Shown: piece after piece, positions 4,555 to 56,760 of the stretch
How the letters are laid out: the number at the start of each line of letters is the position of its first letter
How positions within the stretch are numbered: position 1 is the first letter of the stretch
Origin: Amaurobius ferox
Lineage: Eukaryota; Arthropoda; Arachnida; Araneae; Amaurobiidae
Direction of reading: 5' to 3'
Length of the DNA stretch: 64,000 nt
NCBI GenBank assembly: GCA_951213105.1
Contig: OX578136.1
Coordinates: 154,049,178-154,113,177, forward strand
Made by a program: the position numbers and the translations under genes
The notes under the pieces: generated by a model
Database searches by the model: none
What the model was told of the DNA's origin: nothing
What the model saw: only the letters and a program-made list of their open reading frames with translations

Positions 4555-5511
4555 AAAAAAATCTGATGTGGGCAACACATGACTTTCCTTATATAATGTA
4601 ATGAATTTACTACTTTTACAGTAAAAAAATAGGATTTTCTTGTAGTAGATACTAATATTCTTTCCAAGATATTGAATTTTCGACAATTAGTCGTCATTTT
4701 CATTGATTTAGCGTCATTTTTATCCATTTGGCGAGATTTTCGTTAATTTGGCAACATTTCAAAAAAGTCGCCAAGTTGGCGACATTCCGCCAAATTCGTC
4801 GCCAAAATCTCGCCAAGCGTTATGCACTAAGAAATAAATTTTTCTTAAAGCAGATAAATGACTATTGGCGTTCAAATACAAAAGTATTTTTCAAAGTATC
4901 TTTTTTCAAGAATGGAACGAGCTAGATCCACGAGAAGGATGTCACTCAATTTATCGCATGGTATTACATATGAAAAGTAAACATGTTTCTCAATAGGAAA
5001 TAGTTTTCTTTTTATTTTATAAGACTTTTTGATAATTTTTTTTAAAAATGTACAATATCTCGAGAACGGTTCACGTTAGCGTTCTAAAATTTATGTCAAT
5101 CGTTTTCTAATGAAAAATTACATAAGAAATGTCTATTTGCGTAACTTTATTAGTGGTTTTAATTTTTTGACTATTTTTTCAAAATTTCATTCGAAAATTT
5201 AGGGGGGTTCTGAACATTCGATTGCGTATAAAAACAATAGGCTTCCAGTGTTTACGGATTGTGATTTTTGTACCAAATTTGGTTCGAATCGGTCCATTCG
5301 TTCGTCAGTTATCGTCTCCACAGACTCACTGACACACACACACACATACACACATACTTTCACACACACACACACACACAGACATCACTTCAAAAATGTT
5401 TGATTCGTGATCAGGGATGCTTGAAACGTGCTCTCCCATCGAAAACTCGAATTCGAATTTTCGACCCCGTCACAATACTTTCCTTATACATTATGTATAT
5501 AAGGAAAGTAA
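4555..5511 (+). repeat. Repeat family A, complete copy (~955 bp)
   Basis: This is the clearest full copy of the main dispersed family. In order it has the left signature 'ctgatgtgggcaacacatgac' followed by 'tttccttatataa'; a GGCGA/TCGCC-rich core (4730-4815); 'atctcgagaacggttcac' (5056); a (CA)n microsatellite (5334-5380); 'gatcagggatgcttgaaacg'; and a right-terminal hairpin in which ACTTTCCTTATA pairs with TATAAGGAAAGT around 5478-5510. No protein is encoded. Other copies are at 7905-9727, 9985-11612 (inverted, split by a LINE), 14494-14742, 52640-54190 (inverted) and 60061-61103. Confidence 0.85.
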
Positions 5512-6320
5512 AAATTAACACACCTCTAAAATACCGTCCGATAATCGCAAATTAGCCAATAATCAACTCGCATATCTACCGCTCAAGTATGTACAGTGGA
5601 GCCCGCATATAGCGAAGTCGCAAAGAGTAAGAAAAAAAGATTCGTTATAATTGATATTTGCTTTAACCGATAGAAACTTTATATATGAGAGAAATAATGA
5701 CTTATCTGATGGCATATTGTGAAACAAAAAAACAAAAAATCCATATAGTATGGTTGACATGTAATGCTCTTTTATTTACGTTGGAAAAAAAACTGTAATT
5801 TCCTTTGAACATGTGAATTTACAATGCACTTGCATAGCACTTCTCATATTGTATCTAAATTGCCACTGCAGTTCACGTTCTGAGCTTCGAAATAGTTACG
5901 CAACTTTTAGAGGCTTTCCACAACAATTTTTTCTGTTATCTTCCCTCGTTTTAAATCAATTTCGGTTCCATCGGAATTAGATTCATCAGACATCAGCAAC
6001 TGCAACAATAATGGCGTGTTTGGTCTCTAGTGCTTGTGCTTCAACACCAGTGTTTCTTCCAGGCATACATCCAGGGGGGGGGCTTCGTCCATGCCCCCAC
6101 CCCGGAGGCATTTTGTGTTACCCAGCAAAATGTTAATAAATTCAGGCTATATTGAAATTAAAAAAAGGTTTTGCTTCTTTGGATGCTACAAATTTGGAAC
6201 AAAACAGGTGCAAATCTAACAAAAGAAGCTGTTATCGGCGTGTGAATGGTGTTTAGAAATTCTCAGGAGGCTCGCCGATCATTTTCAGAATAAGATTTTG
6301 TGGCTGTATGTAGTCCAATT
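5512..6320. other. Non-coding, nothing recognised
   Basis: Mixed A/T-rich sequence. No element boundary or coding pattern stands out. Confidence 0.4.
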
Positions 6321-7652: not shown

Positions 7653-7904
7653 ATAGTCTTACGGACAATGAACTCTATTATTTATTTTTGAGCTGTAACA
7701 TATCATCGAAATCATGAGCTTAAAAATCAGCGAATACATGTATTAATAAAGCAGTAACAGTTTCATATTAACAGCATGCAAATGAAATATGAAAATTTCC
7801 GTTTAAAAATATGAAAAAACCTGTTCGGTTATTCAAAATCAAAGTCATATCCAAATATATGTCACCTTTAACCTCTAAAATTTACTATCTCCATTTAAAT
7901 AAAA

Positions 7905-9727
7905 ATCTGATGTGGGCAGCACATGATTTTCCTTATATAATGCAACGAATTTACTACTTTTATAGTTTAAAAAAATCTGATGTGGGCAACACATGACTTT
8001 CCTTATGCAATGAATTTACTACTTTTACAGTAAAAAAAAATAGGTGTTTCTTATAGTAGATACTTATATTCTTTCCAAGATATTGAATTTTCGACAATTA
8101 GTCGTCATTTTCATTGATTTAGCGTCATTTTAATCCATTTGGCGAGATTTTCGTTAATTTGACAACATTTCAAAAAGTCGCCAAGTTGGCGACATTCTGC
8201 CAAATTCGTAGCCAAAATCTCGCCAAGCTTTACTGACGGAGAAATAAGTTATTCTTATAACAGATAAATGACTATTGGCGTTCAAATACAAAAGTATTAC
8301 TCGAAGTATCTTTTCTCATGAATGGAACGAGTTAGATCCACGAGAATGATGTCACCCAATTTATCGCATGGTATTACATATGAAAAGTGAACATGTTTCT
8401 CAATAGGAAATATATTTTTTTTAATTTTATATGACTTTTTGATAATTTTTTTGAAAAATGAAAAATATCTCGAGAACTGTTCATATTAGCGTTCTAAATT
8501 TTATGTTAATCGTTTTCTAATGAAAAATTACATAAGAAATGTCTATTTGCGTAACTTTATTAGCGGTTTTCATTTTTTGACGATTTTTTCAAAATTTCAC
8601 TCGAAAATTTAGAGAGGTTCTAAACATTCGATTAGATTTAAAAACAATAGGCTTCCAGTGTTTACGGATTGTGATGTTTGTACCAAATTTCGTTCGAATC
8701 GGTCCATTCGTTCGTCAGTTATCGTCTCCACAGACCCACTGGCACACACACACACACACAGACATCAGTTTAAAAATGTTTGATTCGTGATCAGGGATGC
8801 TTGTAACGGGCTCTCCCGTCGAAAACTCGAATTCGAATTTTCGACCCCGTCACAATACTTTCCTTATACATTATGTATATAAGGAAAGTAAAAATGTTAT
8901 TCTTATAGTAGATACTTATATTCTTTCCAAGATATTGAATTTTCTTCAATGAGTCGTAATTTTCATTGATTGAGCATCATTTTTATCCATTTGACGAGAT
9001 TTTCGTTAATAAAATGTGACATGTTGGCGACATTCCGCTAAATTCATCGCCAAAATCTCGCCAAGCGTTATGGACTGAGAAATAAGTTATTCTTACAGCA
9101 GATAAATGACTATTGGCGTTTAAATACAAAAGTATTACTCAAAGTATCTTTTCTCGTGAATGGAACGAGTTAGATCCACGAGAATGATGTCACAAAATTT
9201 ATCGCATGATATTGCATATAAAAAGTGAACGTGTTTCTCAACAGTTAATATTTTTTTTAATTTATGGGATTTTTTTATACATTTATTTGAAACATATGCA
9301 ATATCTCCAGAACGGTTCATGCTAGCGTTCTAAAGTTTAAGTCAATCGTTTTCTAAGGAAAAATTACATAAGAAATATCTATTTGCATAACTATTTTAAA
9401 GGTTTTGATTTTTTGATAATTTTTTCAAAAATTCACTCGAAAATTCAGGGGGGTTCTGAACATTCGATTGTGTTTTAAAACAATAAGCTTCGAGTATTCA
9501 CGGATTGTGACTTTTGTACCAAATGTCATTCGAATCGCTCCATTCGTTCCTGAGATATTGCCTCCACAGACTCACTGACACACACACACATACACAGACA
9601 TAACCTCAAAAATATTCGATTCGTGATCAGGGATGCTTGAAACGTGCTCTCCCGTCGAAAACTCGAATTCGAATTTTCGACCCCATCACAATACTTTCCT
9701 TATACATTATGTATATAAGGAAAGTAA
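7905..9727 (+). repeat. Two joined family A copies
   Basis: The first copy (about 7905-8893) begins with the signature 'atctgatgtgggcagcacat' twice (7905 and 7972), so its left end is duplicated, and ends with the family hairpin at 8860-8893. A second copy (about 8894-9727) follows directly but starts inside the element at 'ttattcttatagtagatac', lacking the left signature, and ends with the same hairpin at 9692-9725. Both contain the (CA)n tract at the same place. No coding sequence. Confidence 0.8.
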
Positions 9728-9984
9728 TAACCCTTCACTAAACTACAAAGAATAAAAACTTGTGTGAATTTTAACCCTGCATTATAATATATCTCATCAA
9801 AAAAGCGTAAATAAATTATAATTCCGTGAATTGTTGACAGTTTTGTTTCAGGCAGTTTTTAACGATATACAGTCATTGATTATTTGCTCTTTGTGTGCAA
9901 ATTTATCTAATTCATCTGATGGACGATGCAAGGCTGATTATACGTAGGAGTGAAAGCACCTCTAACTCTTCAACTCTACTTTTT

Positions 9985-10628
9985 ACTTTCGTTATATAGA
10001 TAATGTATAAGAAAAGTATTGTGACGGGGTCTAAAATTCGAATTCGAGTTTTCGACGGGATAGCACGTTTCAAGCATCCCTGATCACGAATCAAACATTT
10101 TTGAAGTGATGTGTGTGTGTGTGTGTGTGTGTGTCAGTGAGTCTGTGGAGACGATAACTGACGAACGAATGGACCGATTCGAACAAAATTTAGAACAAAA
10201 ATCACAATCCGTAAACTCTGGAAGCCTATTGTTTTTATACGCAATCGAATGTTCAGACCCCCCCCCCCCCGCCCTGAAGTTTCGAGTGAAATTTCGAAAA
10301 AATCGTTAAAAAATCGAAACCGCCAATGAAATTACTCAAGTAGACATTTCTTATGTAATTTTTCATTGGAAAACGATTGACATACATTTTAGAACGCTAA
10401 CATGAACCGTTCTCGAGATATTGCACATATTTCAAAAAAATTATCGAAAAGTTATATAAAATAAAAAAAAAGTATTTCTTATTGAGAAACATGTTCACTT
10501 TTCATATGGAATATCATGCTATAAATTGGGTGACATCATTCTCGTGGATCTAGCTCGTTCCATTCATGAGAAAAGATACTTTAAGTAATACTTTTGTATT
10601 TGAACGCCAATAGTCATTTATCTGCTGT
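9985..10628 (-). repeat. Family A copy, inverted, right-hand part
   Basis: This is the reverse complement of the family A right end and centre, starting with the hairpin at 9984-10020, then a (GT)n tract at 10108-10135, a 13-base C run at 10258-10270 and 'cgttctcgagatattgcac'. It is interrupted at 10629-10640 by the LINE insertion and resumes at 11318. Confidence 0.85.
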
Positions 10629-10640
10629 AAGAATAACTTA

Positions 10641-11317
10641 TTGCGATCAACGTAGGGCTTGACGCCATCATATCTCTTGATTATAATTTTGGAGAACTTT
10701 GGATACTGTCGGACAGCCGCAGTGCACTTCAACATCTTAGTGGCTGGTCCTCTGCAGGCGATGAAAGCAGTATATCTATTCTGCTCAAGCTAAAGAAGAT
10801 TTCTCAGAACCACGAAGTCCATCTCCAATGGATTCCATCACATGTAAACATTAGTGGTAATGAGGTTGCGAATAGATTGGCCAAAGAGGGCAGTGAGGAC
10901 GAAACGACCACTGGTTCTTCGCTTACTTATCAAGAATTGTACTCAAATGCAAGATCTAAATTAAATTTAATTTGGCGTACTCCACCTGCGCACCAATGGT
11001 ACACCGGAACTTCCCCTGGCGCTCTTCTGGAAATTAAATGTGATCGTGGCTCCCAGACTGCACTAGCTAGACTTAAAAGTGGCCACCTTAAGTGTCTTTC
11101 TTTTGAGCGCGGTGGAAAAATCCATCCCACTTGCAATAAATGCTGTGACCATCCGGCCTCCCCGAAGCACATTCTGAGTTGCGTCGGACTTTCCAAGGAG
11201 GACTTGACTTCTGCCCCCCTTTTAGTTATTGATTTTCTGGCGGTCAACAACCTACTGGAGTTGATCTGACTTATGTCAGATCTGTTAAAGAGGATAAGCA
11301 ACAACAACAACAACAAC
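10641..11317 (+). mobile_element. 5'-truncated LINE with (CAA)n tail
   Basis: The 12-bp sequence AAGAATAACTTA is present at 10629-10640 and again at 11318-11329, marking a target-primed insertion into a family A repeat. What remains is the end of the pol ORF and a ~48-bp untranslated end finishing 'gaggataagcaacaacaaca'. The CAA tail and the preceding ATAAGC are shared with SINE-B at 22711-22998, and the CAA tail with SINE-A. Confidence 0.9.
10656..11269 (+). pseudogene. LINE pol C-terminus: RNase H domain and zinc-binding tail
   Basis: RNase H removes the RNA strand of the RNA-DNA hybrid during retrotransposition. The frame is open from about 10656 to the stop at 11267-11269, longer than an ATG-based reading suggests. 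Visible motifs are SDSRSALQ (contains a catalytic Asp), QWIPSH, and GNEVANRLAKEG. In the last, Asn replaces the Asp usual in GNExAD, so one catalytic residue is missing. Near the C-terminus, C-x2-C then H-x4-C (CNKCCDHPASPKHILSC) is the zinc-binding tail found in LINEs that carry a terminal RNase H. The upstream endonuclease and reverse transcriptase are absent through 5' truncation. Assignment to the I/Jockey group is inference. Confidence 0.85.
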
Positions 11318-11612
11318 AAGAATAACTTAGTTCTCCGTCCATAACGCTTGGCAAGATTTTGGCGACGAATTTGGCGGAATGTCGCCAACTTGGCGCCATT
11401 TTTAATTGTTGCCAAGTTAACGAAAATCTCGCCAAATTGATAAAAATGACTCTAAATCAATGAAAATGACGACTAATTGAAGAAAATTCAATATCTCGGA
11501 AAGAATATAAATATCTACTATAAGAATAACTTTTTTTAACTGTAAAAGTAGTAAATTCATTGCATTATATAATGAAAGTCATGTGTTGCCCACATCAAAT
11601 TTTTTACATAGA
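11318..11612 (-). repeat. Family A copy, inverted, left-hand part
   Basis: Continuation of the copy starting at 9985. It holds the GGCGA/TCGCC core (11345-11450) and ends with the left signature in reverse ('tgttgcccacatcaaat', 11585-11602). Confidence 0.85.
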
Positions 11613-11718: not shown

Positions 11719-11839
11719 TGCAGAGTCCACTTCGACGAGAGCTTGCAATTTCGTCCCAGCAGCTCAATGGTAGAGCGTCGGCTGCCCAGTTCGGAGATCC
11801 AGGGTTCGATTCCCGGTTGGGACAGCAAGGCTCTTTACA
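11719..11839 (+). repeat. TRIM left LTR
   Basis: A 121-bp repeat from TGCAGAGTCC to CTCTTTACA. Its central 71 nt fold as a tRNA (see 11753-11823). The flanking 'cacttcgacga' and 'gcttgcaatttcg' are conserved in the right LTR. Confidence 0.75.
11753..11823 (+). other. tRNA-like module inside TRIM left LTR
   Basis: Seventy-one nucleotides fold into a near-complete cloverleaf. The seven-pair acceptor stem is GTCCCAG with TTGGGAC (one G-T pair), the D stem is GCTC/GAGC, and the T loop is TTCGATT. The A box (CAGCTCAATGG) fits ten of eleven consensus positions and the B box (GGTTCGATTCC) is perfect. The anticodon stem is poorly paired and position 33 is not T, so it is unlikely to be a working tRNA; it looks like a tRNA-derived Pol III promoter. 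The nearest TTTT downstream is at about 11913, inside the TRIM, so a Pol III transcript would be expected to stop before the right LTR unless read-through occurs. Confidence 0.75.
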
Positions 11840-11840
11840 A

Positions 11841-11853
11841 TGGCGCCCGAACG
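11841..11853 (+). promoter_or_regulatory. Primer-binding site, tRNA-Lys type
   Basis: TGGCGCCCGAACG directly follows the left LTR after one A. It matches the first 13 bases of the well-known tRNA-Lys primer-binding site of retroviruses and some LTR elements. Confidence 0.8.
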
Positions 11854-12051
11854 AATCAACCCTGTAGGTTAGTGCAAAGATGTCGGAGGTTTGAAAGAAT
11901 TTGAAGTGCCTATTTTAAATTAAGAGGATAACGGCCACTCAGGACCTGGGTAAAAATAGTAATAGCAGGAGGGTAACCTGAGGTAAAAATAGCAGTAGAC
12001 GGTTAATCAGATTGTCAGTGGCCCGCCAATCTGACATTAGAGGATGGAGAA

Positions 12052-12175
12052 TGCAGATTCCACTTCGACGATAAGAGCTTGCAATTTCGTCTCAGTAACT
12101 CAACGGTAGAGCAACGGCTGGCCAGTTTGGAAATCCAGGGTTCGATTCCCAGTAGGGTCAGCAAAATTCATTACA
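12052..12175 (+). repeat. TRIM right LTR
   Basis: A 124-bp repeat from TGCAGATTCC to TTCATTACA, aligned along its whole length with 11719-11839. The tract AGAGGATGGAGAA immediately upstream is a plausible polypurine tract. Confidence 0.75.
12089..12159 (+). other. tRNA-like module inside TRIM right LTR
   Basis: Same 71-nt module as at 11753. The B box GGTTCGATTCC is intact and the A box reads TAACTCAACGG. Two acceptor-stem pairs are lost, so this copy has decayed more than the left one. Keeping A and B boxes while the stems erode is compatible with selection on the promoter, or with chance. Confidence 0.7.
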
Positions 12176-12227
12176 AGTTACATAATCTTTTGCAAGCAAA
12201 TTTTGGCTCAGATAAATAATCAAATGT

Positions 12228-12350
12228 TGCAGTTCCACATCCACCATAGAAAATAAGAACACCGTCCCAATAACCCAATAGAATATATAATAGCACATCG
12301 AGTGACCAGGCAGAGATCCATAATTCGAATCCTTTTGGGACATGGGTTGT
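12228..12350 (+). repeat. Third, diverged TRIM LTR-like copy
   Basis: A segment starting TGCAGTTCCACATCC repeats the order of the two LTRs and contains a tRNA-like hairpin pair (GTCCCAA at 12264, TTTGGGAC at 12334-12341) around a weakened B box (ATTCGAATCC). It lies only 52 bp beyond the right LTR. It may be the remnant of a tandem TRIM formed by recombination between LTRs. Confidence 0.5.
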
Positions 12351-13330
12351 TAATACATAGGAGTTAATTATAAGATGTGTAAGATGTACCAAATGTAGAT
12401 GTACCAAAAGTAGCAGTGGTGTATGTGATTATGCTTTTATCCATTATATCTCTTATTACCTGGCGATTATGATGCATATGAAAGTCTATTAAAGTACCAA
12501 TAGACTGTATTTAAAGTTAAGTTGTAGCATATGTTCAGGGTTAAAATGAAATATTCTTTTCTCAACTCAGTGGTCGTGTATAAAGGTATTTGAGGATCGC
12601 ATAAAGGCATCCAATTTTGGTATGTATAATTATGCCATTATACAATATGCAATATTAGACGTTTTTCAATCAGCTATATCTATTGAAATACCGTGTTATA
12701 CGAGTATGTCTGGCAAATGTTTTTTTTTATTGATTGAAGAAAGAATTCGGAATCGATGTCTAATATTGAACCTGTCTTCCAGAAGCATGTCGTACGAGTA
12801 GATATAGGTAGTAGAATTAAGACGTATTTTCCTTGGAACACAGCTGCGCGAGTTGTTGTTATTTTTAGCAGCTGCATTCTCAGCCACGACACATAGACCG
12901 ATAGATATAATATCTAAAGTAACTGGAAGCACTTGACCCAAAATCGTGAAATAATTGCTTTTAGTATAATCCGTTCGATAAAGGATCATCCAACAAAATG
13001 CTCCAAGCAAAGTAAGAAATTCATATTTTCAACTATAGTTGAAACCTTGCCAATGTTCAAAATGGAAACGTTATAGGGTAATTATTTAGAAGAAAGAGAA
13101 GTTACGAAGTATGTACTTGCAATCAGTCGATAGAAAACTGCTGAAAAATATTAATGTGGTGACAAAAGAGTCTGCACGGGTCGAAATTTTAGACTTTCGT
13201 GCGGATAAGTGCTCGAACCCTGTGGGAGACGTAAGGAAAATTTTGAATGTAGAACCTGGGCCCATACGGCCTGGGTCGAAGGTCCTTGAGTCCTCGCTTC
13301 GTCCTCCCCGAAATGTGTTCCAACCCTAAC
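12351..13330. other. Non-coding, nothing firmly recognised
   Basis: The text after 12350 has short phrases like those in the TRIM interior ('taccaaaagtagcagtgg'). Beyond that, no gene or element is supported. Several short open frames overlap each other on the minus strand without any recognisable motif. Confidence 0.4.
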
Positions 13331-17092: not shown

Positions 17093-17740
17093 TTAAAAAA
17101 AAATTATGTTGCGCAACAATAAAAAAAATGTCATTCTAGTTTTCCTTTGTCGTAAATTATATCTCTCATTAAGTGTTGGAATTACATCATTCTCATGAGA
17201 TGTAGTACTTACCGAATTATCAGATTGTACACAAGAAAAGAACACAGAATCTCTTTCTGGAATTTTTGTTAATCTGTCAATGTGCACCAACTGAACATTT
17301 CGTATGTCATTTACATGTTGAATTTTAAAGTTTACATTAGATGTTTTTTGTATTACTTTAAAAGGACCTTTATTAAGTTTAGAGAGCTTCCTACAATGTC
17401 CTGTTGGAAAAAAGAGGAATGTATAAATATACGAAATCTCCAACTTTTATATCTTTTACAACAGCAGAATTATTTCTGTATATTTCTTGTGTTTTAGCTG
17501 CTTTAAGTAAGTTTTTCTTTACTATTTCAAAAGATTTTTTCATACGAATCGCCAAATCCTGACTATAATCACTAACAGTGGTAAAATTTTGTTCATTTAA
17601 GTTAAAAAGAAGATGATGTGGCAAAATTAATTCTCTACCTTAGAGAAGATTAGTCGGAGACTCACCAGTCGAGGAATGGATTGAAGTTCGGTGGGCCAAC
17701 AAGGCAAAAAATAAATGTGGATCCCAATCCTCATGTGGTT
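17093..17740 (-). pseudogene. Gypsy-type integrase, C-terminal half (broken)
   Basis: Integrase inserts the DNA copy into the host genome. On the minus strand from about 17740, a degenerate frame has the order 'DWDPHLFFALLAHRTSIHSS', 'LLYGRELILPHHLL', then a host-factor-binding-like 'KVGDFVYLY' and 'KLNKGPFKVIQ ... VHIDRL', the usual C-terminal layout of Gypsy integrases ending in a GPY/F-like module (GPF here). At least two frame changes occur (around 17640 and 17420). The zinc-binding and catalytic D,D-35-E core are absent, so it cannot function. Confidence 0.85.
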
Positions 17741-27270: not shown

Positions 27271-27345
27271 CTTTCCCAGTCTTCTTAGCATGAACAGAGA
27301 GGTGTTACGAACCCCTCTCTGTCCATGCTAAGAAGACTGGGAAAG
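27271..27345. repeat. 32-bp inverted repeat straddling the right LTR start
   Basis: The arm 27271-27302 (CTTTCCCAGTCTTCTTAGCA...) is the inverted copy, with one mismatch, of 27314-27345 inside the LTR. The 11-bp spacer TGTTACGAACC is exactly the LTR terminus. The left LTR has no such arm outside it. The arm therefore separates the purine tract from the LTR and looks like an inverted duplication made at the LTR edge. Confidence 0.9.
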
Positions 27346-27708
27346 CTTATCCTCGGCCCGTCATCTTACTTCTCCCAGAGTTTTGCAGCTGGCCACGCAA
27401 TTTGATACTGCGGACTGCGGGGGGGGGGGGGGGGGTCAAGGGTCAAATATTGGAGGGGAGGGCGATGGCGGTTTGAAGAAGAAAGACTTGCTTTCTGGAC
27501 TCGGATCTGAACGGACGATGGAACTCGCGGAGTCCCGAGTATTATGTATCAATCTGAATGTGTGAATATGTATATGTATGGAAATAGTTCAATTAATAAA
27601 TGTGTTAGTGTGAAATGAAGAAGAGTGTTTTGTATAAGCTTAGCGAAACGAACCACCAAACGGGCTCAAGGCGATCAGCAATTGGAAATGAGAGCCGAGT
27701 TCGTTACA
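27303..27708 (+). repeat. Right LTR of the pol-less element
   Basis: 406 bp, same termini as 22137-22531, with a 17-G run at 27419-27435 and the target duplication GAAGC directly after it. Confidence 0.92.
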
Positions 27709-28965: not shown

Positions 28966-30258
28966 CAACCATAATGTTTTTATCTTCAGACTCAAATTTA
29001 CTTTGTCTTTCATCCATTAAATTGAGTTTAAATGCGCAAAATAACACCGATAGACATTTGAAATCATATTCAATTTGCAGTTCTAATGCATTTGCTTTTT
29101 CATATGGCAGTTTAACGCATTTTACAACGTTGACAGCTCTTGAAATTTTCAAAAAAACTTACCTATTTTGAAAATGGTTCATCCTAGTGTAATGGAATTG
29201 GTCTTATTCATTTTGTCATCAAAAATTATGCATTAAACAATCATTTAATTAATACATAAAAATAAAAGAATATTTAGTGTTTAATTTCAGATTTTAACGA
29301 TTTTTGCGGGCCATTTTGCAAGAAAATGCAGGATTTTTTGGGTTTTTTTAAATTCAAATCGTACCAAAATCTAATCAGCACCAGGGAACCCAAAAGTGGC
29401 TCATCTACAAAATTTTGCAAAATTTCGTTAAATAGTTTTTGAACTAAAATGGGTACACACACACACATTATGTAAAAAATCATTGTTTTCGTGTTCTAGA
29501 ATGCTTTAAACGTGTAAATCCATTGAAAACTCAAGTTGCGATTTTCGACAGGATTCTAATACTTTCCCTATACATTACCATGTATTGTAGGTAAAATAAA
29601 TGTCTGATGTAGCCAGCACATGATTTTCCCTACAGATTGAAAGTCCCTTTCTCTATCTTTCTTTTATAATTCATTAAATTGAGTTCCATTGCACAAAATA
29701 ACACGGATAATTATTTGAAATTGCACTGAATTTTCAGTTCCATTCCAATTTTCAGTTCCATTCCAATTTTCGTTTCATTTGGCGACTGGACGTGTTTTCA
29801 AAGGCGGCGTAACAAAAATGCAAGAAAGCTGAAATATATCGAGAACGGTTAGTTCTAAAGAATAAGGTTGGTCTTATTCTTTTTTTTTAATCAAATATTA
29901 AGTATAAAATGATCATTCGATTGATACATTTGAGCATAAAGTATTATTTTATCTCAGATTTTGACCATTTTTAGGGGCCTTTTAGCTAAAAAAGGGCAAG
30001 TTAATTTTTTTCTTTTTTCGAATCGTAGCCAAATCTAATCAGAACCACGTTAGCCAGAAGAATGGGCCAAATTTCACAAAATTTGGTCCATTAGTTTTGC
30101 AGCTAGAGTGGATACATACATTTCATACACACACGCAGGCGTCACGCTAAAAATAGCTTTTTCGCGTTCTAAAGTACTTAAAACGTGTAGATCCTCCGAA
30201 AACTGCTTTTTGACACGATTTCAATGCATTCCTATACATTGCCATGTATTGTACGGAA
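28966..30258 (+). repeat. Two family B copies in tandem
   Basis: Copy one (28966-29590) has 'gaaaatggttcatcctag' at 29170, 'ctaatcagcaccagg' at 29365, a short (CA)n at 29455 and the end 'attaccatgtattgtagg'. Copy two (29590-30258) starts 'gtctgatgtagccagcacat', the same left signature as family A, and ends 'attgccatgtattgtacgg'. The direct duplication 'ttttcagttccattccaa' occurs inside the second copy (29740-29770). Confidence 0.75.
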
Positions 30259-30305
30259 AGCAAAAATCAATATATTGCAATTATAAAGCAACCAATATGT
30301 ATATA

Positions 30306-30925
30306 ATTATTGATTTACTGTCCCTACAATACATGGTAATATATAAGGAATGTATTGGAATCGTATCAGCAATTGTGTTTCATGCACACTAGACCACGAA
30401 TCCACCAATTTTAATGTGACGTCTGTGTGTGTGTGTTGTTTGTGCAATGATTATATCCAGTATAGCTCAAAATATATTTAACGAAATTTAAATAAATTTG
30501 GTAGACAAATCCCTTATTAAAAAAATTCCCCTGGTGTTGATTAGATTTTGGTTTGATTCGCAAAAATAGAACCGGCATTTTTTCGCAAAATGGAAGAAAA
30601 AATCGTCAAAATTAGATATAAAGGACAAAATGTGCTGGAATGTGTTAATTAAAAGCTTGTTCCATGCGCTATTTTTGACCACGAAGCGAAACAATAAAGA
30701 CCACAAAGACCCAACTGTTCTCGAGACATTTAATTTCTGTTTGGTAATTTTTGCAAGCTGGCAACGGTTCATAATGCGATAGAAAAATCGTTTTAAATTA
30801 TAAATTGAATATAATTTCAAATAAATATGTGCGTCATTCATTCATTCGATTATAAGAAAAATGCAGAAAAATGAATTTGAGCTTGTAGAGAAATTCATGT
30901 GCTGCCCACATCAGATTTTTTTATT
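30306..30925 (-). repeat. Family B copy, inverted
   Basis: Mirror image of the previous copies: 'ctacaatacatggtaatata' at 30325, (GT)n at 30425, 'actgttctcgagacattt' at 30713 and the left signature reversed ('gtgctgcccacatcagattt') at 30900. It forms a large inverted pair with the 29590-30258 copy. A 117-codon open frame inside it is not a gene. Confidence 0.8.
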
Positions 30926-35586: not shown

Positions 35587-36635
35587 GTAAACAGATACAC
35601 TATGCATGGATATGCCATTTTTATTGGAGGGGGGGGGGGGCAGCTTGGGCATTTCCTTAAAGAAAGATGCCGCATATCCACAATTACTGTTCAGTCACCT
35701 AAAGTAATAAAAAAAGTATAATATTACAACACAAATGACATCCAAGGGAAGAACTAAAAACGATCTTGACGAACAATCCCACGTGTTTCAGGAAAACTAT
35801 AAAATGCAGACACCTCTACAAAAGCAATCATACTTTAACCGATGTGTTGTTGCAGTCTATAAATAAAACGCAATATAAACAAGAAAGATCAATCATGCTT
35901 AAAGCATTGATTATGAAACACTTTCCAACTTCAATGCAATTTTATTTAAACAAGTCTAAAATGCAATACATTCCTCGGTAATATTTTGAAACTTATCACA
36001 TTAATTTATTATATTTGAAAACTTAAACCTTCATCGAAAAAAATGAACTTCATTCAAATGACGGCATTGAAATATAAATTGCCTGGTTTAAACATCTCTA
36101 AAATGTTATACATTCCTCGGTAATAGTTTTAGAATTATCATAATACTACGATAATTTATTATATTTGAAAACTTCATCGAAAACAACTGAAATTAATTCA
36201 AATGACGTCATAGAAAAAATAACACGCCTGGATCTCTCTATGAAAACAGGATTTCATACATAACTTTCTCCCATTCATTTCATTCATCACAATACTATAA
36301 TAATTTATTTTATTTAAACATTTTATTTAAGACCATGGAGCTACAAATAATTAAACCCTATGCTTCAAACTTCATCGAAAAAAAATCGTCCTTCTCTTTA
36401 TAAAATCAATTAATATTTCATTCATATCAGCCATGCAGACTCCATGGACTAAATTATTTTGTGTTAAAAAAATACAGGAATTCTAATACAACTCATTCTA
36501 CATATTTGGCTGTTTACATTTTACATAGGTGAAAAATAGGCTTAGTTGTAGAAATAATCAAATTTAGATGAGCATTTAAACTCAAATATATTGTCATTGC
36601 GTTGTTTCAGTATGTAGATGCACAGAATTTAAGCA

Positions 36636-37020
36636 CGGCCAACGGCCATGCCGTGCTGAAAACACCGGTTCTCGTTAGATCACCGAAGTCAAGCAGCATC
36701 GGGCGCGGTTAGCACTTGGTGGGTGACCACCTCGGAACACCGCGTGCTGTTGGCCATCTCGGGTGCGGTATCCCCGTGGTTTGCGCGCTAGATTTGCACG
36801 CTACCACAAATGCCGCCGTGTTCATGCGGAGTACGATCACGTTAAACATGTGAGTCCGTAAGTCCTTCCGAGAGGTTGGTGGTAGGGGAAGGAGGGTACG
36901 GTCCCTGTGGATGCCTCCCCCACTGGGTTCCGGTCTAAATTGGGTGGCACTTCCCGGCCGTCCATACAGTTACCTTACACCTTTCTGGTAGGTCGGACGG
37001 TCTGGGTCTCAACAACAACA
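36636..37020 (+). mobile_element. Chimeric SINE: 5S rRNA head fused to SINE-A body
   Basis: The 14-bp duplication ACAGAATTTAAGCA occurs at 36622-36635 and 37021-37034, so the whole 385 bp entered as one reverse-transcribed unit. The family D copy at 31262-32545 shows the site without the insertion ('gcttaaattctgtgc' near 31795). The order is a 5S rRNA sequence, then a SINE-A head whose B box region is deleted ('gatttgcac' joins directly to 'gctaccacaaatgccgcc') and whose A box is degraded (TATCCCCGTGG), then a normal SINE-A body and CAA tail. No TTTT occurs between the 5S head and the tail, so Pol III could read through from the 5S promoter. Confidence 0.92.
36638..36756 (+). rRNA. 5S rRNA-derived sequence (SINE head, pseudogene)
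   Basis: About 119 bp match metazoan 5S rRNA over its full length: GCCAACGGCC start, ACACCGGTTCTCG, GATCACCGAAG, TCGGGCGCGGTTAG, GGGTGACCACC, and CGCGTGCTGTTGGC end. One base is missing relative to the usual GGATGGGTGACC. The internal control region (A box, intermediate element, C box) is largely intact. There is no T run after the gene. It lies within a target-duplication-bracketed insertion, so it is a retrotransposed copy and not a locus of the 5S array. Confidence 0.9.
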
Positions 37021-37575
37021 ACAGAATTTAAGCAAAAATAAAGTAGTTTTAGGACGGATACAACACTCAATATGAATTAAAAAGAACTTAAAAAAATCAC
37101 GATTTTGAAACAAGATGGATGCCATATATCATTTTGAAGTGGGTCATGTGATCGTTTCATATCATGGTCACGTGATCGTTTCATATAAGAGGCGTAATTA
37201 TTATTTTAATTTTTATTTAAAAAACTACTGAATATATTTCGCTGAATTTTTTTTTATATATTTTATGGATCAATTTGAATATTACCTAAAATTTTCGAAG
37301 CAATTTGTGAATTTTAAATCCGCTTAAAAAATGTTTGAAAAATTAGTTCCCATAGGGCTCAATGTATTTCATTTTTTCAACCCGGGTTCAATCCAAAACT
37401 AATTGGGTGATATTATTCATTTATATTCCCATAGGTCCTACAGACCGTCTGAACAACATACTAAAATTTCATTTTGATTAAGTCATTTTTACGGCAGTTA
37501 TCGTGCTAACGGACAGACAGACAGACAGACAGAATGAACAAAGTCATAAACACTTTTCAACTTTGTTGTAAAGTG

Positions 37576-41047: not shown

Positions 41048-41405
41048 CTGATTTGTCTATTGTGAAAATGGGCCTGCTTTGCCTATTGTGAAAAATGGGC
41101 CTGCTTTGCCTATAGTTAAAATTGGACCTGATTTGCCTATAGTTAAAAATGGGCCTACATTGCCTATGGTGAAAATGGGCCTAATTTGCCTATTGTGAAA
41201 AGTGGGCCTGATTTGCCTATGGTGAGAAATGGGACTGCTTCACTTATTGTAAAAAATGAGCCTGATTTTCTTATAGTGAAAATTGGGCCTGCTTTGCCTA
41301 TGGTGAAAAATGAGCCTGCTTTGCCTATTGTGAAAAATGGGTCTGCTTTGCTTATGAAAAATGAGCCTGCTTTGCTTATTGTGAAAAATGGGCCTGATTT
41401 GCCTA

Positions 41406-41694
41406 TTGTTGTTGTTAAGACCCAGACCGTCCAACCTACCAGAAAGGTGTAAGGTAACTGTTTGGACAGCCAGGAAGAGCCACCCAATTTAGACCGGAAC
41501 CCAGTGGGAGAGGCATCCACAAAGACCGTACCCTCCTTTCCCTACCACCAACCTCTCGGAAGGACATGGACCCACATGTTTAACGTGATCTTACTCCCCG
41601 TTAACACGGCGGCAGTTTTGGCAGCGGAGGGAATGGAACACAGGCCTACAGAGTAGCAATTCCCGCGCGCTAACCACTGGGCTACAACGCCTCT
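41406..41694 (-). mobile_element. SINE-A copy 2 in minisatellite
   Basis: Full-length SINE-A body reversed. Right junction 'acgcctctgattc' is shared with copies 1 and 3. Confidence 0.9.
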
Positions 41695-42713: not shown

Positions 42714-43124
42714 GATTTGCCTATTGTGAAAATGGGCCATCTTTGCCTACAGTGAAAAATGAGCCTGTTTTGCCTATAGTGAAAAATGGAACTACATTGC
42801 CTATGGTGAAAAATGGGCCTAATTTGTCTATTGTGAAAAGTGGGCCTGATTTTCCTATAGTGAGAAATGGGCCTGCTTTACCTATTGTGAAAAATGGGCC
42901 CGATTTGCCTATTGGGAAAAATGGGCCTGCTTTGCGTATGGTAAAAAAAGAGTCTGCTTTGCCTGTGGTGAAAAATGGGCCTAATTTGCCTATTGTGAAA
43001 AGTGGGCCTGATTTGCCTATGGTGAAAAATGAGCCTGCTTTGCCTATTGTGAAAAATGGGCCTGCTTTGCTTATAAAAAATGAGCCTGCTTTGCTTATTG
43101 TAAAAAATGGGCCTGATTGCCTAT

Positions 43125-43409
43125 TGTTATTGGTGAGACCCAAACCGTCCGACCTACCAGAAAGGTATAAGGTAACTGTTTGGACGGCAGGGAAGAGCAA
43201 TCCAATTTAGACAGGAACCCTGTGGGGGAGGCATCCACAGAGACCATATCTCTCCTTCTCCTACCACCAACCTCTCGGAAGGACACGAATCCACATGTTT
43301 AACGTAATCTTACTCCCCATTAACACGGCGGCAGTTTTGGCAGCGTAGGGAATCGAACCCGGGCCTAGCGAGTGCAATTCCCGCGCGCTAACCACTGGGT
43401 TACTGCGCC
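43125..43409 (-). mobile_element. SINE-A copy 4 in minisatellite
   Basis: SINE-A reversed, with an intact B box (GGAATCGAACCCGGGCC on plus). Its right junction 'actgcgccctgctttgcc' differs from copies 1-3, so it is an independent insertion or a gene-converted copy. Confidence 0.85.
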
Positions 43410-43984
43410 CTGCTTTGCCTATTGTGATAAATGGGCCTGCTTTGCCTATTGTGAAAAATGGGCTTGCTTTGCCTATTATGAAGAAAAATGGGCCTACTTT
43501 GCCTATTGTGAAAAATGGGCCTGCTTCGCCTGTGAAAATTGGGCCTGCTTTGTCTATTGTGAAAAATGTGCCTGATTTGCCTATTGTGAAAAATGGACCT
43601 GATTTGTCTATAGTGAAAAATGGACCTGATTTGCCTATAGAGAAAAATGGGCCTTCTTTGTCTATAGTGAAAATGGGCCTGCTTTGCATGTGAAAAATGG
43701 GTTTGCTTTGCCTGTGAAAAATGGATCTGCATTGCCTATTGTAAAAAATGGGCCTGCTTTGCCTGTGGTGAAAAGTGGGCCTGCTTTGCCTATTGTGAAA
43801 AATGTGCTTGCTTTGCTTATTGTGTAAAATGAGCCTGCTTTGCCTATGAAAAATGGGCCTGCTTTGCCTATGGTGAAAAATGACCCTGGGTGCATGCAGT
43901 TGGTACCCCAGGAAGTTTTACCTAAAATTACTACTTTAGGGTTGTCGCTTAAATGGCTCTCAAACGAATCTCATTTTCTGAATA

Positions 43985-52639: not shown

Positions 52640-54190
52640 GAAAGTCATGTGCTGTCAACATCAGATTTTTACTTTCCTTATATACATAACGTATATAAGG
52701 AAAGTATTGTGACGGGGTCGAAAATTCGAATTCGAGTTTTCGACGGGAGAGCATGTTTCAAGCATCCCTGATCACGAATCGTACATTTTTGAAGTGATGT
52801 CTGTATGTGTGTGTGTGAAAGTATGTGTGTGTGTGTCAGTGAGTCTGTGGAGACGATAACTGACGAACGAATGGAACGTTTTGGTACAAAAATTTGGTAC
52901 AAAAATCACAATCCGTAAATACTGGAAGTCTATTGTTTTTATACTCAATCGAATGTTCAGAACCACCCTGAATTTTCGAGTGAAATTTTGAAAAAATTGT
53001 CAAAAAATCAAAACCGCTAATTAAGTTACGCAAATAGACATTTCTTATGTAATGTTTCATTAGAAAACGATAGACATAAATTTTAGAACGCTAACATGAA
53101 CTGTTCTCGAGATATTTCACATTTTTCAAAAAAATTATCAGAAAGTCATATAAAATAAAAAAAATATATTTCCTATTGAGAATCATGTTCACTTTTCATA
53201 TGTAATACCATGCGATAAATTGGGTGACATCATTCTCGTAGAACTACCTCGTTTTATTCATGGAAAAAGATACTTTGAGTAATACTTTTGTATTTGAACG
53301 CCAATAGTCATTTATCTGCTGAAGAATAACTTATTTCTCCGTCCATAACGCTTGGCGAGATTTTGGGGACGAATTTGGTGGAATGTTGCCAACTTGGCGA
53401 CATTTTGAATTGTTGCCAATTTAACAAAAATCTCGCCAAATGGATAAAAATGACTCTAAATCAATGAAAGTGACGACTAATTGAAGAACATTCAATATCT
53501 TGTTAAGAATATAAGTATCTACTATAAGAAAAACATTTTTTTAACTGTATATGTAGTAAATTCATTGCATTATATAAGGAAAGTCATGTGCTGCCCACAT
53601 CAGATTTTTTAAGCTGTAAAAGTAGTAAATTCATTACATTATATAAAGAAAGTCATGTGTTGCCCACATCAGATTTTTTAAGCTGTAAAAGTAGTAAATT
53701 CATTACATTATATAAAGAAAGTCATGTGTTGCCCACATCAGATTTTTTAATGTATTACGGAAAAGTTTAACAGTGTGATTATTACTTTCCTTATATACAT
53801 AGTATAATGTATAAAGAAAATATTGTGACGGGGGTCAAAAATTCGAATTCGAGTTTTCGACGGAAGAGCACGTTTCAAGCATCCCTGAACACGAATCAGG
53901 CGTTTGTGGTGATGTCTGTGTATGTCAGTGAATCTGTGGAGACAATATCTCACGAACGAATAAAGCGATTTTAACAAAATTTGGTACAAAAATCACAATC
54001 AGTGAATACTGAAAACTTATTGTTTTTACACATAATCGAATGTTCAGAACCCATCTAAATTTTGAAAAACTCATCAAAAAATTAAAACATTTAATAAAGT
54101 TACGTAAATATTAATTTCTTATATAATTTTTCATTTGAAAACGATTGACATAAACTTTAGAACGCTAGCATGAACCGTTCTCAAGGTATC
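52640..54190 (-). repeat. Family A copies, inverted
   Basis: A nearly full inverted copy runs from the hairpin at 52670-52705 through (GT)n, 'aactgttctcgagatattt' at 53100 and the GGCGA core at 53350-53440 to the left signature at 53590. A second, partial one follows from its own hairpin at 53783-53820 to 'ccgttctcaaggtatc' at 54190. Between them lie tandem copies of the left end (see 53550-53752). Confidence 0.8.
53550..53752. repeat. 69-bp tandem triplication of the family A left end
   Basis: About three units of 69 bp running 'gtaaattcattacattatat' ... 'gtgttgcccacatcagattt' ... 'aagctgtaaaagta'. The last two units are identical, so the expansion is recent. A similar doubling is visible at 7905-7990. 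Confidence 0.9.
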
Positions 54191-54944: not shown

Positions 54945-56760
54945 GATTCTCCACACACATTCGCTCAGGGCGCGGTAGCCCATTGGTTAGCGCGCTGGAG
55001 TTGCACTCGGTAGGCCCGGGTTCGATTCCAGCCACTGCCAAAACTGCCGCCGTGTTCATGCGGAGTACGATCACGTTAAACATGTGGGTCCGAAAGTCCT
55101 TCCGAGAGGTTGGTGGTAGGGGAAGGAGGGTACGGTCCCTGTGGATGCCTCCCCCACTGGGTTCCGGTCAAAATTGGGTGGCACTTCCCGACCGTCCAAA
55201 CAGTTACCTTACACCTTTCTGGTAGGTCGGACGGTCTGGGTTTCAACAACAACACACATTCGCTCTTCCAATATTTAACGCGTTGGCACTCTAAGAGCCT
55301 CCACATGCATACGCTGTTTGAACTACCAAGGGTACACTCTATTAAAAGTATCACAGCGTATGTTGTTAGAACTATCACGCACATGCGCTGTTAGACTCAC
55401 AACCAGCTTGCGATGTAATATGGTTAAAGCGCATCCTCTGTTAGCTTTGACGCGCATGTTCAGAAAGAAATACCGCGCGCATGCGCTGTAGGAGCCTCCA
55501 CGCGCATTCGAAGTTCAATCCTTAATGCCTTTGCACTGGAAGAACCTCCACACGCATGCGTTGTAAGAGCCGTTTACACGCATGCTCTGAGCTTCAACGT
55601 ATGTGTGCTGTAAGAATTTTGAACTACAACGCACATTCGCTAAAAGACCCTCTAAGCGCATGTACTGTTCAATCACATGCTTATGCTGTTAGAACTCCCC
55701 CGAGCTGTTCAATTTCCAACGAGCATTTTCTGTAAGAACTTCCATGCATTCCAAAAATATACTCATGCGCATACGTTATAAGAGCCTCTAAGCACATGCC
55801 TTGTTGCAGGAACCATTCTCGCGCATGCGCTGTAGGTTTTAATGAGCGATGAATTCTCTCTCCGCACTCCAAGTCTTCCCACTCTGTTCAATCCTCAACG
55901 CGCATGCTCTGTAAGAATCTCCACGCGCATGCGCTGTAAAATAGATCCTCGCGCATGCGCTGTAGAATAGATCCTCGCGCATCCGCTGTGAGATCGCTCC
56001 TCGCACGTGCCCTGTTAGTACTGCCACGCGAGTGCGCTGTAAAAACTATCATGCGCGTATGTTGTAAGAACCATTCAAGAGCATGCACTGTAAGTTTTAA
56101 TGAGCATACGATGAATCCAAGTCTTCCCACCCTGTTCAATCCCCAACACACATGCGCTGTAACGAATCTCCACGCGCACGCGCTGTAAAATCACTCCTCG
56201 CGCATGCTCTGTAACAGTCTCAACGCGCATGCTCTGTAAGAGCCTCAACGCGCATGCTCTGTAACAGCCTCAACGCGCATGTTCTGTAAGAGTACTTCTC
56301 GCGCATGCGCTGTAAAATCGCTGCTCGCGCATGTCCTGTTAGAACTGCTCGTCCGCTGTAAAAATTATCATTCGCGTATGTTATAAGAACCATGCACGCG
56401 CATGCGCTGTAAGTTTTAATAAGCATGCCATGAATTCTCTTCCCGCGCTCCAAGTCTTCCCAGCCTGTTCAATCCTCAACGCACATGCTCTGTAAGATTG
56501 CTGCTCGTGCATGGCCTTTTAGAACTGCCACTCGTGTGCGCTGTAAAAATGTTTATGAACGTATGTTGTAAGAATCATTCACGCGCATGCGCTGTAAGTT
56601 TTAATGAGCTTGCGATGAATTCTCTCCCAGCGCTCCAAATCTTTCTACCCTTTTCAATCCTCAACGCGTATGCTCTGTAAGAGCCTCTACGCGCATGCGC
56701 TGTAAGAATCTCCACGCGAATGCATTAAAAGAGCCCCCATACGCGCATGCGCCATTTGTA
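54945..56760. repeat. Higher-order repeat built on CGCGCATGCGC
   Basis: A ~25-30-bp unit of the type 'ctccacgcgcatgcgctgta' plus 'agag' repeats dozens of times with variation. At least nine units hold the perfect palindrome CGCGCATGCGC. From 55836 a longer block ('gttttaatgagc...gatgaattctct...ccaagtcttcccac...tgttcaatcctcaacg') recurs at about 56093, 56412 and 56597, so short units are organised in larger periods of about 185-320 bp. The array starts just left of the SINE at 54967, whose target duplication is itself an array unit. Open frames inside it are by-products. Confidence 0.92.
54967..55251 (+). mobile_element. SINE-A copy, young and full length
   Basis: Intact A box (TAGCCCATTGG) and B box (GGTTCGATTCC). 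14-bp target duplication ACACACATTCGCTC at 54953-54966 and 55252-55265. Nearly identical to 2300-2588. Confidence 0.95.

Follow-up and report, generated by a model that had tools for sequence, protein, structure and literature searches.

A TRIM with a tRNA-like unit in its LTRs from a spider genome, probably an old and rearranged copy of the Helenus type

TRIMs whose LTRs contain tRNA-derived sequence were named Helenus by Kojima in 2024, the presence of that sequence being the naming criterion, and were placed together with Cassandra and Ajax under the term TRIMp3 (PMC10886601). As described there, Helenus elements are 311 to 1263 bp long, are found in fungi, animals and a lycophyte, and have also been reported as solo LTRs and in tandem arrays. 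Most of their LTRs conserve box A (TRGCY, YGG) and box B (GGTTC). According to the same account, Helenus elements in animals have 4-bp target duplications (TSDs) and a Gypsy-like PBS, with tRNA-Lys among the primers, as in some hymenopteran, vertebrate and bivalve families (PMC10886601). The arthropod hosts in Table 1 of that paper are Hymenoptera (wasps) only, with no arachnid among them, and words starting with "spider" or "arachnid" are absent from its main text.

Cassandra resembles the element described here as a TRIM whose LTRs carry a Pol III promoter (PMC10886601) but is a plant element, derived from 5S rRNA, whose transcript ends in the 5S unit of the 3' LTR. Ajax, from nemerteans, is also a TRIMp3 but is described as having a partial 5S rRNA promoter (PMC10886601). 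Among arthropods, the description of PbTRIM from Pogonomyrmex gives a TRIM of 480 to 781 bp with solo LTRs; it differs from our element in its tRNA-Leu primer and 4-bp TSDs, and the passages that describe it make no mention of tRNA-like LTR sequence (PMC3532108). In a predatory mite genome, the figure reported for TRIMs is 0.01% (PMC6902594).

We analyzed a 64-kb stretch of DNA (the window) from the spider Amaurobius ferox that holds an element of this build (Table 1). An earlier note, made from the sequence alone, had described two TG...CA direct repeats of about 122 bp and of modest identity, a PBS one base past the first repeat and a purine tract before the second, with a total length of 457 bp and an interior of 212 bp. 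All of these points held, including the borders. The LTRs paired at 83.9% identity over 124 columns (E = 6e-34); aligned without gaps, they were identical at 104 of 121 positions (86.0%; K2P 0.158), and they differed in addition by one 3-nt indel. An element of this length, with LTRs of 121 and 124 bp, falls within the TRIM screen (<1000 bp) and is too short for a mobilization protein. The interior opens with a single A followed by TGGCGCCCGAACG and closes with AGAGGATGGAGAA. It has no second copy in the window, where all matches other than itself were weak and short, the best at E = 0.45.

Table 1. Features of the element and of the neighboring module, in window positions
Feature	Position	Strand	Remarks
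LTR5 (5' LTR), TGCAG...TTACA	11719-11839	+	121 bp; repeat pair with 12052-12175
tRNA-like unit in LTR5	11753-11824	+	Rfam RF00005, 39.4 bits (gathering 29)
Box A-like CAGCTCAATGG in LTR5	11760-11770	+	Against TRGCY...YGG of Helenus, first T reads C
Box B GGTTCGATTCC in LTR5	11803-11813	+	Pattern scan; GGTTC core like Helenus
Interior	11840-12051	+	212 bp; no coding content recognized
PBS TGGCGCCCGAACG	11841-11853	+	One base 3' of LTR5
TTTT in interior	11913-11916	+	Possible Pol III terminator
Polypurine tract (PPT) AGAGGATGGAGAA	12039-12051	+	12/13 purines; abuts LTR3
LTR3 (3' LTR)	12052-12175	+	124 bp; paired with LTR5
Decayed tRNA-like unit in LTR3	12089-12160	+	RF00005, 18.1 bits, below cut-off
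Box B GGTTCGATTCC in LTR3	12139-12149	+	Pattern scan; identical to LTR5 box B
Third module, TGCAG...AATACA	12228-12357	+	Aligns over full LTR length

Twelve nucleotides of the PBS presumably fit the 3' end of tRNA-Lys. Base composition predicts 0.0009 occurrences of the 12-mer TGGCGCCCGAAC in the window, counting both strands. No second PBS of the tRNA-Lys type was found elsewhere in the window, and TGGCGCC recurred there only at 11391 (+) and 11398 (−), which is one palindromic spot. A text search for the PBS 13-mer matched a paper on HIV-1 leader variants, which describes the HIV-1 primer site as complementary to tRNA-Lys3. Taken alone, the PPT is weak evidence, since 13-base stretches with at least 12 purines start at 0.7% of positions, though this one abuts LTR3.

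The tRNA-like unit of LTR5 was one of two Rfam matches above gathering in the 64 kb (E = 8e-5 for the whole window). Using a stem definition set by hand from the ARAGORN drawing, we counted 19 standard stem pairs out of 21 in LTR5, with one mismatch in the T stem and one in the anticodon stem, and 15 of 21 in LTR3. The LTR3 unit aligns with that of LTR5, was absent from the whole-window Rfam search at E up to 10 and scored E = 0.74 in an 801-base search. With the standard code and a lowered threshold, ARAGORN drew a tRNA-Gly(ccc) cloverleaf in LTR5 and found no tRNA in LTR3 or in the third module; with default bacterial settings, it found zero tRNAs in the whole window. The proposal that each repeat folds like a tRNA was thus borne out for LTR5, but in LTR3 the fold is only residual. 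The halves of box A read CAGCT and TGG in LTR5 and TAACT and CGG in LTR3, with one mismatch each to the Helenus pattern. In the third module, boxes A and B are both off pattern.

This third module, also proposed earlier as a diverged unit just downstream, aligned from TGCAG to TACA with both LTRs at 63 to 64% identity. Its global scores against LTR5 and LTR3 were matched by none of 25,188 other 130-nt segments, sampled on either strand in steps of five positions, and its whole-length score exceeded all 300 shuffles for each LTR. The local score against LTR5 was 25, just above the shuffle maximum of 24, and that against LTR3 was 22, below the shuffle maximum of 23 (300 shuffles each). nhmmer paired the module with LTR3 (E = 0.0068 and 0.46 for the two directions) and gave no match to LTR5, blastn linked it to neither LTR at E up to 1, find_repeats did not pair it with them, and Rfam's tRNA model did not match it even at E up to 10. 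When the comparison was made in pieces, the LTR3 upstream piece beat all 63,272 sampled segments, the LTR5 upstream piece was equalled by 299 of 63,272 and the LTR3 tRNA piece was equalled by 638 of 63,180. The local tests are weak; the kinship is clear-cut only by whole-length alignment, and it is in this form, rather than in local searches, that the module stands as a relative of the LTRs. It is most likely an old, diverged solo LTR, an identification less firm than that of the LTR pair. Solo units and arrays are described for other TRIMs (PMC6934838), and the third module beside an LTR pair is similar. Of the 17 sites where LTR5 and LTR3 differ, the module shares the LTR5 base at 7 and the LTR3 base at 5 and has neither base at the remaining 5, which suggests that each LTR has undergone changes. 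We also considered the 52-bp spacer between LTR3 and the module as a second interior and rejected it (local score 14; shuffle mean 14.8).

As the earlier note had observed, there is no target duplication. The 4-bp flanks of this one copy read AACA and AGTT. Shifting the borders gave two 4-bp matches among 81 shift pairs and none of 5 or 6 bp, and we rejected these candidates, which are no more than chance would give and would both displace the LTR ends. By our own arithmetic, flanks decaying at the LTR rate (14% of sites) would retain at most one of four matches about 1% of the time, so that point decay alone is a poor excuse for the missing TSD. Together, the missing TSD and the indel between the LTRs make it probable that recombination between copies has reshaped the locus. 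Such an exchange would jointly explain the absent TSD, the LTR indel and the extra LTR.

We consider it very probable that the locus represents one old, probably rearranged copy of the Helenus type, moved in trans by a Gypsy-like helper. Its TRIM character is argued by homology that runs well outside the tRNA-like unit, by a PBS and a PPT at the borders and by a LTR5 unit above the Rfam cut-off, and is also supported by a box B that is the same in both LTRs and by a third unit that shares both ends. Its size, LTR content and presumed tRNA-Lys primer fit the published description of Helenus, with which it was compared. Because families are judged on many copies, its membership in that group is provisional. 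It shares with Helenus the short TRIM form, the tRNA-derived LTR sequence, the PBS after the 5' LTR and the PPT before the 3' LTR; it differs in lacking the 4-bp TSD, which is a family trait and not the naming criterion, and in its host, a spider rather than a member of the Hymenoptera. The absent TSD, the single full copy, the LTR3 unit below cut-off, the box A mismatches, the interior TTTT with no four-T run in either LTR, and a third module that local methods hardly detect all speak against this interpretation. Nor was a relative found in the collections searched: exact searches with the LTR and PBS patterns gave 0 matches in viral and prokaryotic contig collections, which says little, and LTR-PBS translations, with one reading per strand, gave no candidate in the protein database.

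In the life cycle that we infer for such a copy, on the model of the published group, transcription by Pol III (or Pol II) would begin at the tRNA-like unit of LTR5, or close to it, and continue into LTR3, which would place an R region at both ends of the RNA. Minus-strand DNA would be primed by tRNA-Lys at the PBS and plus-strand DNA by the purine tract, and the enzymes of an autonomous element, probably of the Gypsy type, would copy the element and insert its DNA in trans. The neighboring module would be the solo LTR of an older relative.

An element of the same TRIM anatomy might instead rely on Pol II for its transcription and carry the tRNA-like unit, captured from a SINE or a tRNA, as a passenger without promoter function. 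Such a version is compatible with the Helenus-type explanation, of which it is a variant, and we hold it to be rather unlikely, though with a real share of the probability. The interior TTTT noted earlier is present, and it would cut a Pol III transcript short. After the promoter, the first TTTT is at 11913, followed by one at 12188 in the 3' flank and another at 12333 in the third module. Neither LTR5 nor LTR3 has a run of at least four T residues, so termination within the 3' LTR, as in Cassandra, is not visible here. In addition, PMC10886601, in its account of Helenus promoters, describes them without experimental validation. Against a mere passenger, box B is unchanged where the LTRs differ at 17 of 121 sites, albeit as one short motif only, and conservation across Helenus centers on boxes A and B (PMC10886601). 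The interior TTTT argues against a full-length Pol III transcript of this copy: an RNA ending at 11913 would be unusable as a template for LTR replication, but read-through to 12188 could serve as one. Use of the tRNA-like unit by Pol III is putative in this copy. It is also conceivable that LTR5 is now a tRNA or tRNA-fragment gene kept by selection. The surplus of stem pairs in LTR5 over LTR3 and the tRNA-Gly(ccc) call at lowered threshold would suit such a gene, but these are small numbers, both LTRs seem changed when judged by the third module, the LTR5 unit has its two stem mismatches and ARAGORN finds nothing at default settings; we give this idea hardly any credence.

A further rival is a tandem of two or three tRNA-derived SINE copies beside a chance PBS. 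tRNA-derived SINEs share boxes A and B with the element but lack LTRs, a PBS and a PPT. It is true that the tRNA-like unit scores best of all parts of the element, that the window contains several copies of a tRNA-headed SINE family, and that the element as a whole also lacks an LTR-type TSD. The repeats, however, reach beyond the tRNA unit, by 34 and 37 nt on its upstream side and by 15 nt on its downstream side, as far as shared TG and CA ends, and the PBS and PPT are placed at the borders. The LTR-type units lack the (AAC)n tail of the two SINE units inspected, and the likeness between the head of the SINE in the window and the LTR tRNA unit lies mostly at boxes A and B. The longest flank words shared by the two sides of the three LTR-type units were 4 to 5 nt, the commonest chance values, whereas the same flank geometry on three SINE units gave 8, 14 and 6 nt; in 2000 random geometries, 8 nt arose 26 times and 6 nt arose 215 times, which leaves the last of these within chance. 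With shared ends beyond the tRNA unit and no SINE-type duplication, the SINE pair that the earlier note had kept as its rival is a poor fit, and we regard it as very improbable.

The Helenus-type explanation also changes what is new here. The anatomy first proposed, a TRIM with tRNA-like Pol III boxes in its LTRs, stood, but its standing as a new parallel to Cassandra did not, since Helenus was published in 2024. The kind is thus already known. Relative to Cassandra, the spider element is tRNA-derived and has LTRs free of four-T runs. The spider seems to be a new host record, and arachnid Helenus seems unreported in the literature searched: no report was found in openly licensed PMC papers, with Repbase and the supplement of PMC10886601 outside that scope. 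The copy would extend Helenus-type elements to spiders, beyond wasps, and its internal terminator-like TTTT makes it a test case for the Pol III model. More tentatively, there may be a chelicerate TRIMp3 lineage that arose independently by capture of a tRNA sequence other than that of the host's abundant SINE and persists in spiders, a scenario that we think has somewhat less than an even chance. The tRNA-like unit further suggests that spider tRNA gene counts may include LTRs, a situation reported from rust fungi (PMC10886601).

The window also holds other repeats. A repeat of about 960 bp is present as several copies and fragments in both orientations (4556-5515, 7901-8895, 8890-9730, 9977-10642, 11318-11606 and 52665-53611), and the fragment ending at 11606 lies 112 bp before the element. 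At 10637-11266 lies a LINE-type fragment of RNase H (Pfam RNase_H), for which a search at E up to 1e-3 gave 127 relatives; among the best 120 of these, 116 are from Trichonephila, Araneus, Stegodyphus or Parasteatoda and four are unnamed. Araneus and Parasteatoda are spiders. By taxonomy look-up, Trichonephila and Stegodyphus belong to Araneae. Although they concern a single mobile-element fragment, these relatives by themselves make a spider origin of the window very likely. An integrase C-terminal domain at 17096-17446 on the minus strand (Integrase_p58_C; E = 4e-10) is the remnant of an LTR element.

Members of the tRNA-headed SINE family lie at 2302-2592, 54967-55259, 574-857, 41397-41691, 43123-43411 and elsewhere. 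The copies at 2302-2592 and 54968-55259 are 99.3% identical and hence recent. A full-length 5S rRNA-like sequence at 36638-36755 (Rfam, 97.7 bits) is followed directly by a tRNA-derived SINE body whose tRNA head, by eye, looks degenerate and lacks box B; this SINE and that at 2302-2592, the two inspected, end in (AAC)n. The entire chimera (36622-37034) is bounded by two copies of the 14-bp repeat ACAGAATTTAAGCA, at 36622-36635 and 37021-37034, and was therefore probably retroposed as a single 5S-headed SINE unit. Flank words of at least 14 nt arose in 2 of 2000 random geometries, a figure to be read with the SINE end having been set after the repeat was seen. Finally, long hairpins at 27271-27346 and 30209-30370, with Rfam microRNA-family matches below the cut-offs, are probably foldback elements.
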